From Thermomonas sp. (GTDB taxonomy: Bacteria; Pseudomonadota; Gammaproteobacteria; Xanthomonadales; Xanthomonadaceae): 45,856 bases of DNA. The stretch lies in contig NZ_JADZDS010000100.1 of the NCBI RefSeq assembly GCF_020850895.1, forward strand, positions 1 through 45,856, written 5' to 3'. How positions within the stretch are numbered: position 1 is the stretch's first letter; every line of letters starts with the position of its first letter. A program made the translations under genes and the position numbers. The notes under the pieces are model-generated. The model saw only the letters and a list, made by a program, of their open reading frames with translations, did not search any database and had not been told where the DNA came from. This document shows positions 3 to 30,763 of this stretch, piece after piece.

Positions 3-188
3 TTCGAGCGTGCCGCGTGCAGCCCAAATATCCTTGTTATAATTTTCATCACCGGTGGTGAGGTTGTCGCCAAAACCACCGCGCGACAGGCGGGCAAAGC
101 TGAAACCAGCGCGAAATATGTCGCCAAGGCGTGGCGTCATCACATAGATGCCGGGCGGTTGGATAGCGGCGATGGGGATCAGCATTAA
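3..188 (+). CDS. C-terminal part of an unknown phage A protein
   Basis: An open frame runs in from the left edge and ends at a TAA that overlaps the ATG of the next gene (TAATG). About 61 residues are visible. They start with a hydrophobic stretch (NILVIIFITGGEVVAK) and continue with a basic, Ala-rich segment ending DSGDGDQH. The stop/start overlap is the junction style of the rest of this operon, which favours a real gene. I do not recognise the family. Upstream of a Mor-type regulator one expects middle or early phage genes. Confidence 0.45.
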   Translation, partial: FERAACSPNILVIIFITGGEVVAKTTARQAGKAETSAKYVAKAWRHHIDAGRLDSGDGDQH

Positions 189-682
189 TGAAGCTCGATC
201 CGCTCGCCCGTATAGAGGAACTTCCGATCCCGCAGGACGCCGGCCCAACAAAAAAATGGACCGAACAGATGCTTGAGCTGGCGGCGCACATCGGGCCTTA
301 TGCTACACTTCTGCTTGTCGATCGCGTTGGGGGACAAAAAATTACCGTCCCAATGGATCCGGCGCGCAATCGGCTGCGCCAGGTCGTCGGTGATGAGGCA
401 GCTGCCGTTCTCAGCCGTGTATATGGCGCCAATGAGCTGCTCATCCCGGTAGCACGTGCCGCTCTGAATGAAGCACGACGGGGGGCGGTGATTGCGGCGA
501 TCCGAGAGAAGCGATTGACGATAGCCGAAGCTGCACCGATATTGCGCACGTCGACGCGGTATGTTTCGTTTCTGGTGAATCACACTGAAGAGGGTAAAAG
601 AGACCGGGCATGGGAGCCAACCAGAATTAGGGCGCGAGCTCCCGACCCTCGACAACTCGATATGTTCCCATCCGCTGGCTAG
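188..682 (+). CDS. Mor-family transcription regulator (phage A)
   Basis: This 164-aa protein fits the Mor/C family of Mu-like phages, which activate middle or late transcription with host RNA polymerase. Residues ~35-100 (IGPYATLLLVDRVGGQKITV, then VVGDEAAAVLSRVYGANEL) follow the Mor dimerisation-domain pattern. Residues ~110-140 (IREKRLTIAEAAPILRTSTR) look like the helix-turn-helix. The start overlaps the preceding stop. It sits directly before the DUF2730-gp26-gp27-terminase block, where a late activator is expected. It is clearly diverged from the phage B counterpart at 35580-35969 and has an extra charged C-terminal tail. Confidence 0.7.
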   Translation: MKLDPLARIEELPIPQDAGPTKKWTEQMLELAAHIGPYATLLLVDRVGGQKITVPMDPARNRLRQVVGDEAAAVLSRVYGANELLIPVARAALNEARRGAVIAAIREKRLTIAEAAPILRTSTRYVSFLVNHTEEGKRDRAWEPTRIRARAPDPRQLDMFPSAG

Positions 683-762
683 GGTCTGGCCGCGCACCCC
701 CTTTTGGCGTTCATGCACCACCTAGAGCTGCTTCATTGTCACACCGGCGATGAGGGATGCGC

Positions 763-1167
763 GTGCAAGATAACTGGTTCTCCTGGTTCACCGTTGTCTA
801 CCAGCTCTCCGTCGTGGCGATCCCGATAGCGATAGCGGTTGGCACGCTCTGGCTGAGAGCAAATTATCCGTCACGTCAGGATTTCGAACGACTCTCCGCG
901 TCGATCACCGGCGTCGCGGATCGTGCGACCGCCATCGAAACGCGGCTCAGCCATCTGGAGGCGGACGACAACCAGCCGCCGACGCGATTGACACTGATGG
1001 AGGAGATGGCCGGCCTTTCGTCTAGACTGGCTGGCCTTGAGGCTACTATCGAATCCGACCGGCGAACGGTCGAGCGGCACTTCACCGCGCTCGAGGCGCA
1101 GATGCGCACACTCAACCAATATTTGCACACGCTTGTCGAGCGCGCGGTTCAGGGTGACCATTCATGA
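763..1167 (+). CDS. DUF2730-like membrane-anchored coiled-coil protein
   Basis: The protein has one N-terminal membrane segment (VVYQLSVVAIPIAIAVGTLW) followed by a long coiled coil with a heptad pattern. That is the layout of the DUF2730 family (Mu gp25-like) found between lysis and terminase genes. I chose the GTG at 763 because GAGGG at 752-756 sits 6 nt upstream. An ATG at 757 would directly abut that Shine-Dalgarno. The stop overlaps the next gene as ATGA. The exact role is unknown in the family. The counterpart in phage B is 33204-33542. Confidence 0.65.
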   Translation: MQDNWFSWFTVVYQLSVVAIPIAIAVGTLWLRANYPSRQDFERLSASITGVADRATAIETRLSHLEADDNQPPTRLTLMEEMAGLSSRLAGLEATIESDRRTVERHFTALEAQMRTLNQYLHTLVERAVQGDHS

Positions 1168-1454
1168 CCAATGCTCTGCTTTCTGCACTGATCCGTCGTG
1201 CCATACTCGATCTCGTTGAAGACACCGGCGGGGAGCTCAACGACGAAGTGATTACGCTCATGCTCAACGAGCTTGGTCACCGCGTCGCGCGATCGGTCGC
1301 GCGTAAAGAAATTGCCTGGCTGCACCAGCTGGGGCTCGTTCGCATGGAAACTGCCGCAGAATTTCTGATTGTCCGATCGACTCAGGCTGGTCGTGATGTG
1401 GCGAACGGTCTGCTGCGGGTTGAGGGCGTTTCACGTCATAAGACGGGCGAGTGA
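1164..1454 (+). CDS. Mu gp26-like small protein (VpaChn25_0724 type)
   Basis: This 96-aa, mostly helical protein has a winged-helix feel (EVITLMLNELGHRVARSVAR, then EIAWLHQLGLVRME). It matches in order and style the small gene between DUF2730 and DUF3486 in Mu-like phages. The family is described as a phage protein without a proven function. A role near terminase assembly is inferred from position only. Its phage B homologue is at 32893-33207; both share the WL-x-x-LG/MG-x-V core. Confidence 0.65.
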   Translation: MTNALLSALIRRAILDLVEDTGGELNDEVITLMLNELGHRVARSVARKEIAWLHQLGLVRMETAAEFLIVRSTQAGRDVANGLLRVEGVSRHKTGE

Positions 1455-1457
1455 GCC

Positions 1458-1979
1458 ATGTCGGGCCGATCTTCCATCACCCGAAATCCTGACATCCAAG
1501 CCGCTGTCGATCAATTGGTCGCGGAGGGCGCTTCAATTGACGATATCGCTGTTGCTGTTGCTGACTTTGGTATCAGCCGTTCGGCCGTTGGCCGCTACGC
1601 CCGCCGATATCGCCCGATGGTCGAAGGAATTCAACGCGATAACGCCATTCGCCAGGCGCTGCGAAAGCATTTGCCGGATGGCGTCGATACCGCGCTGGTC
1701 GATGTCGCACTCTACCGTGCGCAGGCGGAGGTTCTGCGTACTTTTGATGGCATGGGTGAAGATGACACTGCCGCCAGTCCAAAAGAAGTCGCCGCGGCCG
1801 TCCGTGCACTGAAGGCGCTGGTGGAGACGATGCGTCACAAAAGGAGCTTTGAGCGCGAGGTTCGCGAGGACGAGCGCAAGAAGACGGTCGAGGCGGCCGA
1901 GCGCGCAGCACAGCGAGCCGGTGCTTCGGCGGAGGTGATCGCGACAATCCGCAAAGACATCTTGATGGGTGCCGCATGA
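1458..1979 (+). CDS. Terminase small subunit (DUF3486, Mu gp27-like)
   Basis: This 173-aa protein starts with a helix-turn-helix (ASIDDIAVAVADFGISRSAV, then GRYARRY) and continues with long charged helices, as in DUF3486. In Mu-like phages this protein sits directly before the large terminase and is taken as the DNA-recognition subunit of the packaging motor. It ends in ATGA overlap with the gene at 1976. In phage B the same gene (32253-32891) directly precedes the terminase, whereas here one extra gene intervenes. Confidence 0.75.
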   Translation: MSGRSSITRNPDIQAAVDQLVAEGASIDDIAVAVADFGISRSAVGRYARRYRPMVEGIQRDNAIRQALRKHLPDGVDTALVDVALYRAQAEVLRTFDGMGEDDTAASPKEVAAAVRALKALVETMRHKRSFEREVREDERKKTVEAAERAAQRAGASAEVIATIRKDILMGAA

Positions 1980-2362
1980 TAGGGCGCCTAACTATGCCGC
2001 GTGGCGCCCCTGAACGCGGTGCGATTATGCGCCTCGCGCTTCGGCTAACTGGTCATGCACAGTCGCGGGGGATGACGTTGGTGCGGCTAAGGCGGACGCT
2101 TATTCGGCGCAGCCAGTCGGCGTACATCTACCTCAAGGATGCTCGTGGTCGGTGTTGGATCATCAGAGTATCCGATCATTTTCGTCCTAACGAGGCGCCG
2201 CATCATTGGCCTCATTTCGACTTTGTTACGCCTGGCGGAGATGCAGGCTTTATCAGCGCCTGCCGCACAATAGATCTAATCGCGATTGGCGAATTCCCGT
2301 GGCACGACCCGGTTCATGACGCGTCTGAGGTTGCCGACCGAATTGCGAGGTTCGCCGCGTGA
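1976..2362 (+). CDS. Unknown 128-aa protein inserted between the terminase subunits
   Basis: The gene is coupled on both sides, by ATGA with gp27 and GTGA with the terminase. The protein is basic at the N-terminus (LVRLRRTLIRRS) and then has a beta-rich middle (YIYLKDARGRCWIIRVSDHF) with a His/Pro patch (EAPHHWPHFDF). I do not recognise a family. The middle could be a small nucleic-acid or ligand-binding fold, but that is speculation. Its absence between the phage B terminase subunits marks it as an accessory gene. Confidence 0.6.
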   Translation: MIGRLTMPRGAPERGAIMRLALRLTGHAQSRGMTLVRLRRTLIRRSQSAYIYLKDARGRCWIIRVSDHFRPNEAPHHWPHFDFVTPGGDAGFISACRTIDLIAIGEFPWHDPVHDASEVADRIARFAA

Positions 2363-4014
2363 ATGACGAAGCACAATATGCCCTTCTCTCGTATCAGAGT
2401 GAGGCGATCCGCTTGGCGGAAGAGCACCAGTTCTTGATCATCGAGAAGAGCCGTCGCGTCGGCATGTCCTATGGATTTTCTCCCATGGCGGTGCTCGCTG
2501 CCAGCGCCGCCGACAGCCCGGAAAACGTGTGGTACGTCGGCTACAACCTCGACATGGCACGGGAATTCATCACCTACTGTGCCGACTTCACCAAGGCGTT
2601 CGAACAGGTGCATGAGATTGCTCCCATGCTCGAACACACCCGTCGCGCCTTCCTCCGCGATGAGGGTGGTCAGCTGCGTGACGACAAGGGGGTCGCGGTT
2701 GAACAGGTCGGCTACATTGACGACGGCGATATAGTCGACGTCGGCACCGACGGCTTTCTGATCCGGGGTGACGCCGGGCGAACGATCAAGGCTTACCGGA
2801 TCGACTATCCGTCTGGCCGAAGTATCGCTGCTCTGCCGTCCAGCCCGCGTTCCGTACGCGGCAAACAGGGTTTCTTTATCATTGATGAAGCGGCATTTCA
2901 CGACAATCTCGAAGAGCTGATCAAGGCGGTCCTCGCGGCGCTGATGTGGGGCGGCAGAGTTGTTCTCATTTCAACCCATGACGGTGCCGACAATTTCTTC
3001 AACACGCTGATCGAGGAAATTCGGGCGGGCAAGCGTGCCGGCCATGTCATGCGCATCACGCTCAAAGATGCTATGGGTGCCGGGCTCTACAAACGCATCT
3101 GCCTCGTCGCCGGTCAGGAGTGGTCACTCACAAAGGAGCAGGCGTGGGAAGCTAACCTGCGCAAGACGTACGGCGATGCGGCCGACGAGGAGCTCGACGT
3201 CATCCCGGCGCGCGGCACCGGTATCTACTTGGCGCGCGCGACCATCCTCGCCGCAATGTCTAAGGAACTGCCGGTTGTTAAACTGCGATGCCCGGACGGT
3301 TTCGAGCGCCGCGATGAAGCGTGGCGGCGCGACTGGCTCGACGAATTCCTGACAGCGGAGGTCCGGCCATGGATCGACGCATTCAACCCGCATCGTCGTA
3401 CCTTCATGGGGCAGGACTTTGCACGCACCGGCGACAACTCGCCTGTGAAGTTTGGACAGCACGACGCCAACATGCGGCTGGTCTGTCGCCTGACGCTCGA
3501 AATGAGGAACGTCCCCTTTTCCGATCAGGAATATGTTCTGGAATGGCTCATCCGGCGCGTCCCCCACTTTGCCGGTGGCAAGATGGACGCTCGCGGCAAT
3601 GGCTCGGCCCTGGCTGAAAAGATGCAGCAGAAATTCGGCTTCGACGTGATCGAGGCCGTCATGGCCAGCGACAAGACCTATCTGGCCTACATGCCGCTGC
3701 TCAAGGCCGCGATCGAGGACCGAACCATCATCTTACCCCATGACGAGGGCGAACTCGACGATCTGCGCATGGTCAAACTGGTACGTGGCGTCCCGAAAAT
3801 TCCCGATCGGGCAGCTAATGTGAAGGAGGACGGCAAGGTCGTCCGCCGCCATGGCGACAACGCGATCGCCGATATGCATCTCGTCGCCGCTGCAGCCGCA
3901 GACCCAGGCGACACCGAATTTCACACCAATGGCGAGCGCCAGTCGGGAGGAGATGAGCAAATCATCTCGTCGACCGGCTTTGGCACCGTACGCCGCCGCG
4001 ACGGAGGCCTATAA
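2359..4014 (+). CDS. Large terminase subunit (Mu gp28-like)
   Basis: This is the packaging motor ATPase and nuclease, 551 aa, normal length. The Walker A-like motif is KSRRVGMSYG (residues ~31-40). Walker B is FFIIDEAAFH near residue 175, followed by the coupling motif LISTHDGADNFF. The C-terminal RNase H-like nuclease begins around residue 350 with MGQDFARTGD, whose Asp is a likely metal ligand. It starts at a GTG that overlaps the previous stop. Its TAA overlaps the portal ATG. It acts at the prohead portal during headful packaging, as in Mu. Confidence 0.9.
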   Translation: MNDEAQYALLSYQSEAIRLAEEHQFLIIEKSRRVGMSYGFSPMAVLAASAADSPENVWYVGYNLDMAREFITYCADFTKAFEQVHEIAPMLEHTRRAFLRDEGGQLRDDKGVAVEQVGYIDDGDIVDVGTDGFLIRGDAGRTIKAYRIDYPSGRSIAALPSSPRSVRGKQGFFIIDEAAFHDNLEELIKAVLAALMWGGRVVLISTHDGADNFFNTLIEEIRAGKRAGHVMRITLKDAMGAGLYKRICLVAGQEWSLTKEQAWEANLRKTYGDAADEELDVIPARGTGIYLARATILAAMSKELPVVKLRCPDGFERRDEAWRRDWLDEFLTAEVRPWIDAFNPHRRTFMGQDFARTGDNSPVKFGQHDANMRLVCRLTLEMRNVPFSDQEYVLEWLIRRVPHFAGGKMDARGNGSALAEKMQQKFGFDVIEAVMASDKTYLAYMPLLKAAIEDRTIILPHDEGELDDLRMVKLVRGVPKIPDRAANVKEDGKVVRRHGDNAIADMHLVAAAAADPGDTEFHTNGERQSGGDEQIISSTGFGTVRRRDGGL

Positions 4015-6080
4015 TGCCCAAACCCTATGCAACCAGGCTCAACCTGCGCGGGCGAACCTCTGGCGCTGTGGCTGCCCTGACGACCGAAATTGCGACCACC
4101 CGCGACGGGATGGACATCACCCGCCCGTTTGTTAGCGGGTTGCAAGAGCCGCGCGATCCGCGTCTGCGGGGGTCGGTTGACTGGGGCGTCTATGACCGCA
4201 TCCTCCAGGATGATCAGGTCTTCTCAACCCTGCAGCAACGCCGCACCGCCGTCGTGTCGTGCGACTGGACCTGTGTCGCGGGTGATCAGGATGATCCGCG
4301 ATCGGTGGCCGCGGCAGACGCCTTTTCGGTGACGCTAAAGCGGATTGGTTGGGACCGCGTTACCGATAAGATGCTCTTCGCCGTCTTCCATGGCATCGCT
4401 ATTGCGGAGATTATGTGGGAACAGCGCGCCGGCTTGATCGATTTTGCATCGATCCATGTTCGCCATGCGCGTCGCTTCCGCTTTGATGATGCTGGCGAAC
4501 TCAAGCTGATCACGCGGGCAGCGCCGCAGGGCAAGCCGTTGGAGCCCCGCAAATTCTGGACCTTCATCGCCGGTGGTAGCGATGACGATGAACTTTACGG
4601 CCGAGGCCTCGCTGAATGGCTCTACTGGCCGGTCCTGTTCAAAAAGAACGGCCTCCGCTTCTGGAACACGTTCCTCGACAAGTTCGGCTCGCCTACCGCG
4701 CTGGGCAAGTACCGGCCCGGCACACCGCGCGCCGATATCGACAAGCTCCTCGGCGCCTTGGGCGCGATCGCGACGGACAGCGGCATCGCCGTGCCCGAAG
4801 GGATGGCGATCGAACTGCTCCAGGTCGCGCGATCCGGTACGGCCGATTTTGCTGCGCTCTGCCGCTACATGGATGAGGCGATTGCAAAGGTTATCTTGTC
4901 GCAGACCATGACCACACAGGACGGTGCCTCGCTCAGCCAGGCGCAAGTGCACGCCGGCGTGAAGGAAGAGGTGGTCCGCTCCGACGCCGACCTGCTCTCG
5001 GACAGTTTCGCTGGTCAGGACGGACCTGTGCGGTGGTGGACCGACATCAATTTCGGCACCGACGTCGCCGCGCCGATCGTGCGGCGCGTCGTCGGGGAGG
5101 AGATCGATGCCAAGGTTGAGGCAGAGACCGACGGCGCTATCAAGGGGCTGGGCTGGGAGCTGACCGAAGAAGCGTTCCGCGACAAATATGGCGAAGGATA
5201 CGCCAAGGTCGCACCCGCCACTCTCCCGTCGCCCGATGCCGCCGTTCAGCGCAGAGATCAGGCTGATGAAGAGGGTGCCTATCCGGGCGATGCCAACGAC
5301 ACCACGGATCCCAAGAGCCCAGCCAGCTTCGCCGCCGATGATCCCCGCCCACTCTATGTCTATCGGCGGCTGCTTAATGCCGACGAGCTGATCGCCTGGG
5401 CACAAGCGCAGGGGTTCCGGACGACGCTGCCGGCAGCAGATCTCCACGTTACTCAGGCCTATTCGAAACGGCCGGTCAACTGGATGCAGTGCGGCGCATA
5501 TTGGGGCTGGCCCGATGAAAAGACTGGCTTGAATGTCGGTGCTGGTGGCCCGCGCCTGATCGAGCGGTTCGGGGACTCGGCCGTCGTCCTCGTCTTCTAT
5601 GCTGGCGCACTGGAAAACCGGTGGCGCGACCTGCGCGACAAGGGATGCAGCTGGGATTTTGAGAGTTATTTCCCTCACGTCACCATCACCTACGATGCCG
5701 GTGATGTTGATCTGGCTCAGGTCACGCCGTTCAAAGGGGAACTGCGCTTCGGGCCGGAGATTTTTGAGCCACTGGAGGAAGATTGGCAGGCCCAAGTGCG
5801 AGAGGCGAGCTTCGCTGCGCCGGCAGGGCCTGCACCGTCGAGCAGCAGCGAGGCTGTGACCGTCGATGACCCCGATGACGCCCTCGCCGATCAGCTGGTG
5901 GCGGAGGCCGGTTACCGCGCAGCCAAAGCACTAACAGACCCCATTCTCGGGGCTGTGCGCGCGGCTGATAGCGAAGCGGAACTGCGCGCGCTGCTCAATG
6001 CAGCGCCGGGCGATCCTGCTGCGATGACACAGGTCATTGAAAACGCGAGCGTCGCCACCCGTCTTGAAGAGGAGAATTAA
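4014..6080 (+). CDS. Portal protein (DUF935) with an inserted Acb1-like 2H phosphoesterase domain
   Basis: Residues ~1-410 are a DUF935 (Mu gp29-like) portal; the typical block [20 protein letters not shown] is present. Residues ~446-592 are an extra domain with two H-V-T motifs, H478-V-T480 (LHVTQAYS) and H555-V-T557 (PHVTITYD), and a GPEIFEP...W segment at 580-591. That is the signature of 2H phosphoesterases and specifically resembles T4 Acb1, which degrades the cyclic nucleotide signals of CBASS immunity. Residues ~593-688 are a helical tail resembling the portal C-terminus. At 688 aa it is about 150 aa longer than the phage B portal (535 aa), which lacks the domain. The portal call is firm. 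Anti-CBASS activity is inferred from motifs; a different 2H substrate is possible. Confidence 0.85.
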
Positions 6081-6082
6081 AC

Positions 6083-6328
6083 ATGTCTGCCCATGTCATT
6101 CCCACCGACCAGCAACTGCGCCTTTTCATCGAGCGCATCGAACGGCTGGAGGAGGAGAAAAAGGGTCTCGCCGACGACATCCGGGATGTCTACGCCGAGG
6201 CCAAGAGCCAAGGGTATGAGGCGAAGATCATGCGCCAGATCGTACGGCTACGACGCATGAACGTCCAAGACCGCAAGGAAATGGACGCGATGCTGGACCT
6301 CTATAGGGCCGCGCTGGGGATTTCGTGA
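6083..6328 (+). CDS. GapR-like DUF2312 protein
   Basis: The 81-aa protein matches the DUF2312/GapR family closely: [38 protein letters not shown] and a C-terminal LDLYRAALG. GapR is an alphaproteobacterial nucleoid-associated protein that binds overtwisted DNA and stimulates topoisomerases. The protein forms coiled-coil dimers and acts in the cytoplasm. It lies 2 nt after the portal and overlaps the MT-A70 gene by 4 nt, so it is part of the late operon. Why a phage would make it late is not known. Shaping DNA during replication or packaging is a guess. Confidence 0.8.
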
Positions 6329-6906
6329 CACTCTCGCGCCCGTTCGGTTCGCTGCCGCTGTTCGCGTGGAATGTAATCCATGCGGATCCGCCCTGGCACT
6401 TCTCGAACTATAGCGAGGAGGGCGAAGGGCGGAACGCGTGTCGGCACTATGACACCATGTCGATCGATGACATTGCCGCATTGCCGGTCGGCGAACTCGC
6501 GGCGGGCGACTGCGCACTGTTCCTCTGGGTGACGGATCCTCTGCTGCCAGAAGGGCTGCAGGTGATGCGCGCCTGGGGCTTTCGCTATACCACCGTGGCG
6601 TTCACCTGGGCAAAGCGATCCAGGCGCGACACCGGCTGGCACATGGGCACTGGCTATTATACCCGCGCCAATCCCGAGACATGCCTCCTCGGCATGACCG
6701 GACACATGCGGCGGGCGGATGCCGGCGTGCGGCAGCTCATCGTCGCGCCCGTTCGCGAACACAGCCGCAAGCCGGACGAGGTGTATGTTGGCATTGAGCG
6801 CCTGTTCGGTTCCACGCCATCGCGCCTGGACCTTTTCTCACGCCAGCAGCGCAGTGGCTGGACCAGCTGGGGCAACCAGACCGACAAGTTTGAGGCGGTA
6901 GTATGA
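6325..6906 (+). CDS. MT-A70 family DNA N6-adenine methyltransferase
   Basis: The 193-aa protein has the catalytic DPPW motif near the N-terminus ([13 protein letters not shown], residues ~19-31), then [15 protein letters not shown] and [20 protein letters not shown], all hallmarks of phage MT-A70 methyltransferases. The expected reaction is transfer of a methyl group from S-adenosylmethionine to adenine N6. In a phage late operon the likely role is protecting virion DNA from restriction. The target site cannot be read from sequence. It is ATGA-coupled to the preceding and following frames. Confidence 0.85.
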
Positions 6907-6968
6907 GGCCTGTCCACCACGTCGCCCAATGCATGACCTGCGGCAAGGTTTGGAGCAGCGGCCTATGA
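6903..6968 (+). CDS. 21-aa mini-ORF with a CxxC knuckle
   Basis: The frame starts at an ATGA overlapping the MT-A70 stop and ends at an ATGA overlapping the next start, so it bridges the two genes exactly. The product contains QCMTCGKVW, a CxxC knuckle as seen at the start of small zinc-ribbon proteins. It is too short to form a full zinc site. It may be the stump of a deleted zinc-finger gene or a translational coupling leader. Confidence 0.35.
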   Translation: MRPVHHVAQCMTCGKVWSSGL

Positions 6969-8203
6969 CCCGCCCTGATCGATCCTCCACCATTTTCATG
7001 AAACCCGATGACGCTCTGCGCGTCTGGCAAGAGCGTGGCGTGCTGCGTCCGACCGTCAATTGGTCGGAGATGATGCACGAGGAGCATGCCGCAGCCTTCA
7101 CCGTAGCGAAAATTGCGCAGCTTGACCTCCTGTCGCAGGTGCGGGAATCGCTCGACCGCGTTCTGCGCGATGGCGGCACGTTCGAACAGTGGAAGGCTGA
7201 CATCCTGCCCAATCTGCAGAGAGCTGGCTGGTGGGGCGTCGTGCAAAATCGTGACCTCACCGGGACGGACGATTCTATCGTGGTCAATGATCGGCGGCTG
7301 CGGACGATCTACCGGACCAACCTGCGCATGAGCATTTCGGCGGGGCGATGGCGCAAGTATCAGCGGGAAAAGGATCTATTCCCTTACCTCCGCTACCTGT
7401 CCGACCATTATCGAAAGCATCCGCGCCTCGACCACAAGGCGCTGCATGGCGTCATCCTGCCCATCGACCATCCGGCCTGGCAATGGATGTTCCCACCTAA
7501 CGGCTGGGGCTGTAACTGCCGCGTCGAGCAGGTGAGCGAAGCTCGGATGCGCCGCAACGGCTGGGTGGTCAGCGATCGCGCCGACGCACTGGCGACACCG
7601 CCGACCACCGAATTTGTCCGGGCGGATGGAACGGCCGTCGCCGTCCCGACCTATGTTCAGCCAGGCTTCGGATACAATCCCGGCACAGCCCATCTGCAGG
7701 TGCTGGCGGAGCGGATGACAGCGTCGATCGAGCGGGCATTGGCCAACGGTCTGGATGACGCGGCGGCTGCATCTTTACGGTCAATCGTTGATGACCCGGC
7801 TTTTGAACAGTTTCTTGCTCTGCCGCAGCCGCGCTTTCCTCTGGCTATCATGCCGGAGGCCGACGCAAGTCTCATCGGTGCCCGCACTAGGGTCGCCGTG
7901 CTCTCCGACTCCGATGCGCTTAAACAACGGGTTCGCTCTGAACAGGGTGACACCTTCCGGGCACTGCCCAGCACCTATCGGTCAATCGTCGATATCGTTC
8001 GCGATTTTACTATTCGCGGGCGAGAAGGCGACAACACGATGCTCTACGCCATGATGCGCGAAGATGGCAGATATCTGTGCGTTGTGGTGCAGCGTACCGC
8101 CTCCGGGCAAGGTCTCTTCATCAAGAGCGTGCGTGTTCAGGCGAGCAGAACCATCGACCGGTTGTTCAGCGACGCGGTCGATATCGTGGATCGGAGGAAT
8201 TAG
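6965..8203 (+). CDS. Mu F-like minor head protein with a C-terminal nuclease-like domain
   Basis: The 412-aa protein has the F-like (SPP1 gp7) head-morphogenesis core: WSEMMHEEHAAAFTVAKIAQ near the start, IYRTNLRMSISAGRWRKYQ and the conserved Cys/Trp block FPPNGWGCNCRVEQVSE. From about residue 290 a separate C-terminal region (ALPSTYRSIVDIVRDFTIRG; LYAMMREDGRYLCVVVQR) resembles the toxin-like nuclease domains often fused to MuF proteins. I chose the ATG at 6965 because it overlaps the previous frame. Its stop lies 262 nt before the dam gene. The F core is firm; the C-terminal family is tentative. Confidence 0.8.
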   Translation: MTRPDRSSTIFMKPDDALRVWQERGVLRPTVNWSEMMHEEHAAAFTVAKIAQLDLLSQVRESLDRVLRDGGTFEQWKADILPNLQRAGWWGVVQNRDLTGTDDSIVVNDRRLRTIYRTNLRMSISAGRWRKYQREKDLFPYLRYLSDHYRKHPRLDHKALHGVILPIDHPAWQWMFPPNGWGCNCRVEQVSEARMRRNGWVVSDRADALATPPTTEFVRADGTAVAVPTYVQPGFGYNPGTAHLQVLAERMTASIERALANGLDDAAAASLRSIVDDPAFEQFLALPQPRFPLAIMPEADASLIGARTRVAVLSDSDALKQRVRSEQGDTFRALPSTYRSIVDIVRDFTIRGREGDNTMLYAMMREDGRYLCVVVQRTASGQGLFIKSVRVQASRTIDRLFSDAVDIVDRRN

Positions 8204-8465
8204 GTGCACGGCGGGGACTTGCATTCCCCCGCATGGCGCTACCGGGCGACGCCCGGTGCTGCGGCCGCAAGATTCACCGCGTCGCGTGCACCGGGGGCAC
8301 CCTTAGCACTGGCGACCTTAACATTCAATGCATCCGCCCCGGTGGCGGGGGCAGGAGCGTGGCAGCGCTCCAAGCCGGCGATCGACACTCGCCACACCCC
8401 AACGGGCCTCTATCAGGGCCGTCCCGCCAGTCCGTCCGGACTATGGGAACACATAGGGAACAAAT
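8203..8465 (+). promoter_or_regulatory. GC-rich structured leader of the phage A dam gene
   Basis: Several stems can be drawn by eye: 8203-8210 with 8285-8292 (GGTGCACG/CGTGCACC), closing 8211-8216/8227-8232, 8241-8247/8251-8257 and 8261-8264/8277-8280; then 8354-8359/8366-8371, 8429-8433/8438-8442 and 8441-8445/8452-8456. The last one abuts AGGGAA, the likely ribosome-binding site of dam at 8466. A Com-like frame runs through the region, so structure and coding may overlap. The folds are hand-drawn, and some pairing is expected by chance at this GC content. Confidence 0.35.
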
Positions 8466-8517
8466 ATGGCCGTGTCGAATCGCAAATTCAGCCTGCCGGA
8501 GGGCCTTTCTCCGGTAA
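8233..8517 (+). CDS. Com-like zinc-finger ORF, probably degenerate
   Basis: The frame has a Com-like pattern (RCCGRK, then a GG-T-L stretch and GDLNIQCIRPGG) that recalls the Mu Com core R-C-x-x-C ... EIKC-x-x-C. The second Cys pair is broken (CIRPG where CxRCG is expected) and the first is reduced to CC. Its 3' end overlaps the dam start by 52 nt, the same arrangement as com and mom in Mu. No good Shine-Dalgarno precedes 8233; GGAGGA at 8193-8198 would instead serve a GTG at 8204 in another frame. It is either a frameshifted com or a divergent one. Confidence 0.4.
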   Translation: MALPGDARCCGRKIHRVACTGGTLSTGDLNIQCIRPGGGGRSVAALQAGDRHSPHPNGPLSGPSRQSVRTMGTHREQIWPCRIANSACRRAFLR

Positions 8518-9308
8518 TGCCAACCCGCCCAGTCGCCGGATACATCGGCGGCAAGCGCAACCTCGCGCGGCGCCTTGTCGAACGAATCGCGGCGACGCCG
8601 CACACCACTTACGCCGAGGTGTTCGTCGGCATGGGCGGCGTCTTTTTCCGTCGCACGGCACGTCCGCAGGCAGAGGTGATCAACGACTGGTCGCGCGACG
8701 TTGCAACCCTGTTTCGTGTGCTGCAGCGGCTATACGTCCCCTTCATGGACATTCTGCGCTGGCAGCTCACCACGCGTACGAGGTTCGAGGAACTGTTGCG
8801 CACAGACCCGACCACCCTCCTCGACATCGAGCGGGCGGCGCGGTTCCTTTACCTCCAGCGAACGGCTTTCGGCGGCAAGGTCGTCGGTCGCGGTTTCGGG
8901 GTGTCGCCATCGACGCCGGCCAGGTTCGATATCACCAAATTGGGGCCACTGTTGGAGGCTGCGCATGAGCGCCTTTCCAGCGTCGTCATAGAGCGCCTGC
9001 CGTGGTCACAATTCATCTCTCGTTATGATCGGCCTGGCACGCTCTTCTATCTCGACCCACCCTATTATGGGTGCGAGCGTGACTATGGCGACGACGCCGG
9101 ACAGCCCCTGTTCTCGCGGGAAGAATTCGAACAGATGGCCGAGCAGCTCGCGTCTATTGAAGGTCGGTTCATTCTCTCGCTCAACGACCATCCGGACGTG
9201 CGGACGATCTTTGCCGGATTCGCGATTGAGGAGGTGGAGACCGTCTATCAGATCGGCGGCATGGATCGGGCAAAGCGCGTCGGTGAACTCATCATTATGC
9301 CGCCATGA
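8466..9308 (+). CDS. DNA N6-adenine methyltransferase (D12 class), phage A
   Basis: This 280-aa Dam-type enzyme has the SAM-binding motif EVFVGMGGVFF near residue 55 preceded by YIGGKRNLARRL, and the catalytic DPPY motif in LFYLDPPYYG near residue 195. It methylates adenine N6 using S-adenosylmethionine, most likely to shield phage DNA from restriction. It is a clear paralogue of the phage B enzyme at 10000-10809, similar along its whole length but well diverged. It sits behind a structured leader and Com-like ORF. It is the last recognisable gene of phage A here. Confidence 0.9.
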   Translation: MAVSNRKFSLPEGLSPVMPTRPVAGYIGGKRNLARRLVERIAATPHTTYAEVFVGMGGVFFRRTARPQAEVINDWSRDVATLFRVLQRLYVPFMDILRWQLTTRTRFEELLRTDPTTLLDIERAARFLYLQRTAFGGKVVGRGFGVSPSTPARFDITKLGPLLEAAHERLSSVVIERLPWSQFISRYDRPGTLFYLDPPYYGCERDYGDDAGQPLFSREEFEQMAEQLASIEGRFILSLNDHPDVRTIFAGFAIEEVETVYQIGGMDRAKRVGELIIMPP

Positions 9309-29048: not shown

Positions 29049-29159
29049 TTAGAAGGCATAGAACCCGCTTAGAAGGCAGGTGGCGGGCGAGCGTGGGCAC
29101 ACACTCGCCCCGGCCGGTCGCAGGCCGATTTTGACGCGATGTTTTTTCGCCAGCGTCAT
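29049..29159 (-). CDS. 36-aa mini-ORF coupled to the portal gene
   Basis: The frame starts at an ATG overlapping the portal stop (ATGA) and ends 22 nt before the F-like gene. It encodes a basic N-terminus (MTLAKKHRVKIGLRPAG) and a Cys/Ser-rich tail. No family is known. It may be only a translational bridge across a 128-bp gap, or a gene remnant. A short direct repeat TAGAAGGCA lies at its 3' end. Confidence 0.3.
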   Translation of the reverse strand: MTLAKKHRVKIGLRPAGASVCPRSPATCLLSGFYAF

Positions 29160-30763
29160 GCCCCGTTGGCCGCTGTTTCGTCATCCTCGCTTTCGTCGAC
29201 CAGGTCACTCCTGCCCGCCGCGTGAGCGGCGGCCAGCCCGGCAGCCAGAACCCGGCCCAGATCGTCGCGGGCGAGTGCACCGAACGCCGCCGACATCATG
29301 GCGCGGAACTCGCCAAGGTCGCTGGCCCGATCCAGCATGGTCTCGATGGTGGCGGCAGCATCCTCCATCGCGGCTGCGGCGTCGGGCAACATCGCATCGG
29401 CCAATTGCTCTGCCGGATGGTGACCAGCTTCGACCGCATGCAGTGCCGGGCGCGCTGACGTCGGCTGCGTCGCTGGGACCGGTGCGAGGCTCGGCGAGCT
29501 GATGGCTTCCCGCGAGGCAGACCTGAGCAATTCGGCGTCGCTTGCCGGGTCGGACAGACCAAGCTTGTCGCGGACCTCGCTCTGCTCGACCCTGAGGCCG
29601 AGTGGCACCAGTTGCGCCAGACTGTCGGTCAGCTGCTTGAGGTCTTCCTTCTGCGGGCGCGCGATGATCAGGCGCGGATAGCGTTTGGACGGGCCATATT
29701 GGAGGTCGAACCAGGGGCGGACCAGATCGCGGTTGAGCACAGCGGCGGCAGACTTGCAGTCGGCGGTCTCGATGTCGGCCTGAACCTGCCGGTGCTCCTG
29801 CGCCACAGCGTGCCCGCCCGATACTGCGTCGGTTGTGGTGGTCTGACCGAGAACAGCCTTGGACACCTGACGGTCGAGCCAGTCGGCGCGCTTTTCATAC
29901 AGTTCGGCACCCGCTGTGACATTCTTCGCCTCGACGAACTCGATCTCCATCGAGTTCGGGATGATGGCTGCACAGTCGCCCGCGATGTTGGCGACGGCGC
30001 GGAACAGGGTCGCCCGGTCCTCCTTGGTCGCGCCGCCATGGAACTTGCCGATCCTGACCGGCTGACCATAGGTCTGCGTAAAAATGGCCCAGTCGCGTTG
30101 CGTGAACGCCTTGAACATCCAGCTCCAGACCGCAAGACGAGCGACGCCGGACCGCACCGGCAGGCCGGATTTGGCCTTGATCTGGGCGACAATGAACTTG
30201 AACGGCGGCAGCGGCTCGGCCACCGCCCCGCCATCGATGCCGCCACGCAGCAATGGATTGCGCAAATTGTGCCGGTCAAAAGTGAACCAGCGCGGGTCGC
30301 GCCATTCGAGGCGAGCCGGCCACCATTGACCTTCTGAACGGTCCCACAGGATCTCGGTAAAACTGATCCCCTTGCCGATCGCGTCGAGGATATCGAACAT
30401 CTCGTCCGACAGCTCGTCTCGCTTCAGCCACTCGCGCACCATATCGGCGCGACGAATGTCCTCGGCATCGTCGCTGGCCGCTTCGACCGTGATGTCGATC
30501 TGCGCGACGCTGCGCTTGCGGGTGCCCAGCACGCCGGCATAGTGGAGGTCGCGCTCCTCGATCAACTCGGCCAGCTCGAAATAGCGCAACGGCTCGCCCT
30601 GGTCAGCTTCCCGCAACAGGTCGGCGAGCGTGTCGGGCGTCAGCCCGTCGGCAGGATACCCAGTCAGGGGCGAGCGAACGCCGGTCAGCGTCGGAACAGC
30701 GATCTCGCGGGTCAGCAGCTCGGGGCGAAGCGGGCGGCCATGTTGATCGACCAAACCGGTCAT
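29156..30763 (-). CDS. Portal protein (DUF935, Mu gp29-like)
   Basis: This 535-aa protein is a normal-length DUF935 portal. Recognisable blocks are RYFELAELIEERDLHYAGVL, GISFTEILWDRSEGQWWPAR, WAIFTQTYGQPVRIGKFHGG and the linker VLGQTTTTDAVSGGHAVAQE. The portal ring is the packaging and ejection channel. It lies 2 nt after the terminase. It has no Acb1-like insertion, which makes it a useful contrast to the phage A portal. The acidic C-terminal tail ends DESEDDETAANGA. Confidence 0.9.
   Translation of the reverse strand: MTGLVDQHGRPLRPELLTREIAVPTLTGVRSPLTGYPADGLTPDTLADLLREADQGEPLRYFELAELIEERDLHYAGVLGTRKRSVAQIDITVEAASDDAEDIRRADMVREWLKRDELSDEMFDILDAIGKGISFTEILWDRSEGQWWPARLEWRDPRWFTFDRHNLRNPLLRGGIDGGAVAEPLPPFKFIVAQIKAKSGLPVRSGVARLAVWSWMFKAFTQRDWAIFTQTYGQPVRIGKFHGGATKEDRATLFRAVANIAGDCAAIIPNSMEIEFVEAKNVTAGAELYEKRADWLDRQVSKAVLGQTTTTDAVSGGHAVAQEHRQVQADIETADCKSAAAVLNRDLVRPWFDLQYGPSKRYPRLIIARPQKEDLKQLTDSLAQLVPLGLRVEQSEVRDKLGLSDPASDAELLRSASREAISSPSLAPVPATQPTSARPALHAVEAGHHPAEQLADAMLPDAAAAMEDAAATIETMLDRASDLGEFRAMMSAAFGALARDDLGRVLAAGLAAAHAAGRSDLVDESEDDETAANGA

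Follow-up and report, generated by a model that had tools for sequence, protein, structure and literature searches.

The portal protein of phage A, a Mu-like phage of a Thermomonas sp. assembly, carries between its core and its C-terminal tail an additional domain of the Acb1 family. Our results lean towards a reading in which an Acb1 phosphodiesterase, built into a Mu/B3-type portal, acts on CBASS-type signals and is released at head maturation. The window, namely the whole stretch of DNA analysed (C100:1-45856, 45,856 nucleotides), presents the following features relevant to this proposal:

188 to 9308, forward strand: phage A, running from a late activator at 188 to its last recognised gene, a D12 methyltransferase (8466-9308)
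2359 to 4014, forward strand: 551-aa ORF directly upstream of the portal gene, large terminase subunit by position only
4014 to 6080, forward strand: phage A portal gene, 688 aa, Mu-type with internal Acb1 (single open frame, Pfam)
4188 to 5192, forward strand: Portal_Mu (PF06074) core, residues 59-393 (Pfam, E 4e-92)
5202 to 5348, forward strand: first linker, residues 397-445, largely without order in the model (pLDDT <50 at 403-443)
5325 to 5336, forward strand: SFAA word ahead of Acb1 (first of two), residues 438-441, presumed site of the prohead protease
5349 to 5792, forward strand: Acb1 domain (PF23474) with a 2H phosphoesterase fold, residues 446-593 (Pfam, model)
5445 to 5453, forward strand: first catalytic motif H478-V-T480, aligned with T4 H44/T46 (T4 residues from PMC9117128)
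5676 to 5684, forward strand: second catalytic motif H555-V-T557, aligned with T4 H113/T115 (T4 residues from PMC9117128)
5751 to 5786, forward strand: GPEIFEP...W segment, residues 580-591, with E585 and W591 equivalent to T4 E141 and lid W147 (roles from PMC9117128)
5808 to 5819, forward strand: SFAA word after Acb1 (second of two), residues 599-602, presumed site of the prohead protease
5820 to 6077, forward strand: C-terminal tail, residues 603-688, modelled as helical and common to Mu-type portals without Acb1
6929 to 8203, forward strand: Mu F-like minor head protein of phage A (Pfam)
29156 to 30763, reverse strand: portal of phage B, Mu-type and without Acb1, for comparison (Pfam)

The 551-aa ORF has no Pfam match at E 1 and is considered a putative large terminase subunit because the gene order is that of phage B3. 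Two DNA-methyltransferase-like genes (Pfam) flank the F-like gene of phage A, one of the MT-A70 type (6325-6906) and the D12-class gene listed above.

The initial annotation had proposed an Acb1-like domain at 5349-5790, and the profile, the fold and the active-site residues all bear this out. The Acb1 family PF23474 matches the whole portal at E 5.8e-36 (123.8 bits) and the isolated domain at E 2e-37 (128.6 bits), with a cut-off of 27 in both cases; such an E-value is far beyond chance. Searches with the domain sequence recovered the Pam3 portal (8hds, E 1.8e-26) and the FBB1 Acb1 (7t26, E 0.0018), and a family profile of 86 sequences (the window domain and 85 relatives) matched 7t26 at E 1.2e-17 and T4 57B with an hhalign probability of 99.0. 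The annotation had also suggested a structure prediction and a profile search against Acb1 families. The search gave the score above, and the AlphaFold model of the domain (mean pLDDT 90.2, pTM 0.85) folds as a 2H phosphoesterase whose best PDB matches are the solved FBB1 Acb1 structures 7t26 and 7t27 (E 2.8e-8 and 1e-7), followed by a Burkholderia phage phosphodiesterase and then LigT. A model of the full-length portal, no more than a sketch (mean pLDDT 66), displays the core, a disordered linker (403-443), the folded Acb1 domain, a disordered stretch (590-641) and a helical tail, and its core is most similar to the JBD30 and Mu portals.

Nine residues of T4 Acb1 have been named (Y12, H44, T46, W74, F107, H113, T115, E141 and W147), of which Y12, W74, F107 and W147 are described as stacking on the nucleobases and E141 as contacting the adenine (PMC9117128). 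Eight of the nine are identical in the window domain (Y448, H478, T480, F549, H555, T557, E585 and W591), including four of the five stacking or adenine-contacting residues (Y448, F549, W591 and E585), while T4 W74 pairs with E517 in the alignment to T4 57B. The two HVT motifs and the GPEIFEP...W segment, already pointed out in the initial annotation, are indeed present at 478-480, 555-557 and 580-591: H-x-T/S is found in this portal only at these two places, both times as HVT, and GPEIFEP starts at residue 580 with the tryptophan at 591. Conservation was counted over 107 non-redundant domains (those at least 90% identical being removed). The first histidine is kept in 106, the first threonine and the second histidine in all 107, and the second threonine in 94, the other 13, Pam3 among them, having a serine; the one exception to the first histidine, L028, is a Mu-type fusion with a tyrosine. 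Conserved words around Y448 and E582-E585 served for the retrieval, so the conservation around these positions is biased; the catalytic histidines and threonines lie outside these words. The insert is almost certainly an Acb1-family domain and very probably a phosphodiesterase.

The idea of a former enzyme, retained as a structural or vestigial part of the portal crown, could draw on the loss of the first histidine in L028 and on the serine that replaces the second threonine in Pam3 and 12 others. It is nevertheless very improbable, as each catalytic position is retained in 106 or 107 of the 107 domains (counting T and S alike at the fourth), while the 85 aligned relatives are 43-62% identical to the window domain. 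The low dN/dS values and the eight near relatives whose portals have the core and the tail without any Acb1 also argue against it. In ten pairs of Mu-type fusions, which share loci with one another, the dN/dS of the Acb1 part was 0.06-0.39 in 10/10, compared with 0.06-0.21 for the portal core, and it exceeded that of the core in 8/10. These low values in the fusion pairs indicate that the domain is maintained in the relatives, somewhat less tightly than the core.

The substrate is a separate question. A 2H phosphoesterase could act on RNA or tRNA ends, or on further cyclic nucleotides such as the trinucleotides of type III CRISPR or Panoptes decoys, its relation to CBASS being incidental. Among the fold relatives are E. 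coli LigT and RNA-acting 2H enzymes, PHROGs names the family RNA ligase, some relatives weakly match LigT_PEase or 2_5_RNA_ligase2, and no SMODS synthase was found in the host. However, the window domain itself matches PF23474 at 128.6 bits and, at E 1, neither LigT nor 2_5_RNA_ligase2, its top fold matches are Acb1, and it retains the equivalents of the base-stacking Y12, F107 and W147 and of the adenine-contacting E141. We thus consider another substrate unlikely and an anti-CBASS-type use likely. The host's own immunity was considered as support for such a use and set aside as uninformative: no SMODS-type CD-NTase, the only type searched, was found in the host genome, and 5 of the 60 genomes searched have one.

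The initial annotation had regarded the domain as a modular insertion, absent from the phage B portal, and both points hold. Pfam finds Portal_Mu alone in the phage B protein, and among 21 Mu-portal relatives from IMG/VR, 10 carry Acb1 (L020 and L021 being near copies), three end at a contig edge and eight consist of core, linker and tail without Acb1. Phage records, viral contigs and genomes together yielded 152 ORFs with the domain, duplicates included, from which the 107 non-redundant domains derive. According to profiles built in this analysis, Pfam having been run on part of the set, these belong to 79 PF06381-type portals, 14 Mu-type portals (the window included) and 14 other carriers. 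The DUF935 (PF06074) setting is thus uncommon among the domains collected, as had been suggested (14/107), and the fusion of Acb1 to other portal families, likewise anticipated, is common on PF06381 portals, Pam3 included. In all 14 Mu-type fusions Acb1 precedes a tail of 85-95 residues, while in 75/79 PF06381-type fusions the protein ends at most 30 residues after Acb1.

The 14 other carriers comprise seven stand-alone genes, the head-region gene of L009, L060 (cut by the contig end), the PF04860 portals of L122 and L141, the DUF2213 head-maturation protease of L145, a doubtful XkdF-type protein in L087, and a 273-aa ORF close to a portal-like gene in L147. In L145 (1-4055), the PF06381 portal stops at VDAA, where the portals of this family normally run on into Acb1, and it is the DUF2213 protease, two genes after the portal, that has Acb1 at its N-terminus. 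This arrangement indicates, from one locus, that Acb1 can relocate within the head module yet stay in it. The L087 case depends on a Pfam match to the XkdF-type protease of 4e-8 in a single locus with an odd frame start, and PHROGs ranks a DNA methyltransferase family first at this place, with head maturation protease far weaker. The 'prohead protease' labels of DSS3P8 and Edwardsiella phage ZHS were considered as further fusions of Acb1 and rejected, as Pfam finds in them Acb1 and weak related 2H families only; the labelled gene of phage ZHS (L009 2116-2715) is short and located between the terminase and portal genes. Two other loci deserve mention: in L091 (1830-4223), a PF06381 portal with Acb1 is followed by a PBECR3 nuclease-like domain, and the RcapMu portal (L197 7572-8948) is annotated as shorter than its relatives and may contain a frameshift.

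A search of the contigs of the window genome found no other Acb1, and it was absent from the 98 other relatives searched. A sample of 370 genomes from the class contained a single one above the cut-off, that of the window, and one other with a weak match below it. Among GenBank phages compared with the full portal, none of 316 records covers 80% of it, a threshold at which a fusion with unaligned linkers, covering perhaps only about 70%, might be missed; ten proteins scanned from 48 domain-matching GenBank records were eight PF06381 portals, two non-portals and no PF06074. A single origin of the Mu-type fusion was considered and not retained: the 107-row tree needs three changes for the Mu group, but its starred branches force only one and its resolution is too low for origins to be counted. 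Acb1-portal fusion as such is not new, being already visible in Pfam for PF06381 portals. Databases name DUF1073 portals 'Acb1-like'. Within the open-access literature searched, most matches of which were left unopened, no published description of the Mu-type fusions was found.

The position of the domain in the portal bears on its possible fate. In the structure of Mu the portal lacks its final 124 residues, and cleavage by protease I has been suggested as a possible cause (PMC11915804). Residue 380 of the window portal corresponds in the alignment to residue 388 of Mu, which places the whole of Acb1 in the part that the Mu structure lacks. Immediately ahead of the tail, B3 reads EFAEGD, phiSHP3 AFAEAD, several relatives SFAE, and Mu ALSAED, and such words recur in the protease/scaffold proteins, with LSA six times in Mu (0.24 expected), FAE five times in B3 (0.18) and four times in phiSHP3 (0.18). 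LSA also occurs once in the Mu portal linker and is a candidate protease I cleavage word (gpI/Z at L169 1557-2642, portal at L170 255-1793).

The proteases were located with a protein probe, which found relatives in 19 of 24 records, the window genome included; the Mu-like_Pro family was discarded as a probe, having matched 1 of 23 records, below the cut-off. In 16 protease/scaffold proteins (from 12 fusion phages and four relatives without Acb1), the pattern [STNDE]FA[EA] was counted 57 times, whereas 500 shuffles gave a mean of 2.5 and a maximum of 8, these proteins being related and some nearly identical, so that the counts are not independent. Three proteases were left out of this count, those of L044 (truncated), L096 (L192) and contig C108 of the window genome. 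Elsewhere in the portal loci, the remaining 33 long ORFs contain the pattern five times, three of them in the L022 protease. In 22 Mu-type portals, the linkers and tails (2994 aa) hold it 23 times and the cores (9393 aa) four times. A looser pattern flanks Acb1 on each side, no more than 25 residues away, in 10/14 Mu-type fusions, 0/79 PF06381-type fusions and 0/14 others. In L019, which shows this best, the portal has SFAADD before Acb1 and SFAEGD after it, and the protease/scaffold protein contains SFAEAV, SFAADD, SFAERE, SFAEGM and SFAEAE. The window portal has SFAADDP before Acb1 and SFAAPAG after it, the latter being also found in the L020 protease; both window copies read FAA, the second copy in the relatives being usually FAE. 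As judged by eye with target duplication in mind, the DNA around the two SFAA stretches is alike only at the motif codons.

An unsupervised test gave a mixed picture: of 18 phages, nine (Mu, B3, phiSHP3, L019, L020, L022, L024, L033 and L051) have in their portal linker one of the four three-letter words most enriched in the protease/scaffold protein. The misses were JBD30, RcapMu, phage B, L025, L027, L031, L035, L040 and L049, several of which carry by eye a near form (SFA, EFAA, SLAE). In JBD30 the top word is absent from the portal, the scaffold AALTA resembling the portal AALAT, and RcapMu and phage B present no clear word common to protease/scaffold and portal. The word is also lacking in the L096 protease (L192), although the L096 portal is a fusion, and in the B3-like protease of C108, which is possibly phage A's own. 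In the PF06381 fusions, D-A-x-P stands before Acb1 in 73/79 and its D in 79/79. It was considered as a protease site and rejected, as the remaining ORFs of these loci, 131,467 aa in all, contain it only 10 times; it is more likely the edge of the domain.

We read the words of the Mu-type portals as prohead-protease recognition sites because the scaffold and the portal tail are reported or presumed substrates of this protease. The words may instead bind the scaffold, and the missing Mu residues could be disordered. In JBD30, 405/526 portal residues are resolved, and the excerpted account of this structure does not mention portal cleavage (PMC11445458). Release of Acb1 from the portal by the prohead protease, as suggested by these sequence patterns, has in our estimation a little less than an even chance, the misses of the word test and of the proteases having lowered it.

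The initial annotation had instead taken a portal-borne copy to be part of the virion. Under this view, Acb1 would remain tethered to the portal, in 12 copies in the capsid, and be active in the assembling head or on entry. The crown and wing of the JBD30 portal lie inside the capsid (PMC11445458), and tethering is plausible for the PF06381-type portals, where Acb1 ends the protein in 75/79 without a bracketing word. For the Mu-type portals it fits poorly with the structure of Mu, which lacks the C-terminal 124 portal residues (PMC11915804), since Acb1 occupies the equivalent region, bracketed by the words in 10/14 cases. Moreover, although the Pam3 Acb1 is in the deposited 8hds chain, 8hds is absent from the best 50 of 199 fold matches of the domain model and from the best 50 of 212 of the full model, which would fit an Acb1 that is unresolved or removed. 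We therefore regard a tethered enzyme as rather unlikely. Loss from the portal seems probable because Acb1 stands between core and tail, within the stretch that Mu virions lack, and in most cases has one of the words on either side.

If Acb1 is released, the following sequence of events can be proposed. Being part of the portal, the enzyme would be made in step with head assembly, late in infection. The prohead protease would cut at both words, freeing into the prohead a module of about 160 residues, which could then leave it as scaffold pieces do. The freed Acb1 would hydrolyse the cyclic dinucleotides and trinucleotides that signal alarm in CBASS-type immunity, to the presumed benefit of the phage.

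The present state of phage A is a different matter. No phage A gene is recognised past approximately 9.3 kb and reverse-strand genes begin at 10.0 kb; between 9.3 and 10.1 kb the phage A genes stop and those of phage B start in the opposite direction, so that nested prophages or a misjoin are possible. Phage B has the single Mu gpT capsid gene of the assembly, no cap_E capsid gene is found there, and the only B3-like protease of the window genome is on C108, a 3.2-kb contig with no detectable DNA in common with the window. The protease of this contig (L195) displays a repeated LVYLAEHPG and no SFA words, and C108 may belong to a third Mu-like element or be a piece of phage A. Given the lack of capsid genes, the protease found only on C108 and the early end of the gene order, phage A appears to be incomplete in this assembly, by decay, nesting or assembly. 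There is a substantial chance, if below even, that it is a broken prophage whose Acb1 copy is now inactive even if the family acts. Against this, the assembly consists of 146 contigs, such that the remainder may be missing or nested around phage B, and the 688-codon frame is intact with its catalytic residues.

The head proteins that carry Acb1 belong to three portal families and also include one clear head-maturation protease and a doubtful one. The prohead protease of Bas13 is reported in a review to interact with a CBASS sensor (PMC12409349). We tentatively suggest, as a generalization somewhat likelier to fail than to hold, that phages repeatedly place Acb1 on head-assembly proteins, and that in the Mu-type portals it is a protease-excised cassette, freed at the step that CBASS reportedly senses. 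A late Acb1 tied to head assembly would provide counter-defence when and where type I CBASS can be triggered, and its fusions to three portal families and a head-maturation protease make the link between assembly and CBASS testable. If true, excision by the maturation protease would be, to our knowledge, a new delivery route for an anti-immune enzyme.

Compared with known systems, the window domain resembles T4 gp57B and the FBB1 Acb1 in its fold, its HxT/HxT tetrad and the equivalents of Y12, F107, W147 and E141. In contrast, T4 Acb1 is a stand-alone protein expressed early (PMC11722364), whereas the window domain, 25-26% identical to it, is built into a late head protein and has E517 at the place of W74. 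Pam3 (8hds) and the other PF06381/DUF1073 portals also carry a C-terminal Acb1, that of Pam3 being 38% identical, but they belong to another portal family, with Acb1 at the end in 75/79 and a bracketing word in 0/79. The PF06074-type portals of B3, JBD30 and Mu have the same core and C-terminal tail without the Acb1 insert. The closest counterparts are the Mu-type fusions from IMG/VR (L018, L019, L020, L038 and others), which present the same architecture with a domain 47-62% identical, several of their loci holding more of the head module than the window does.
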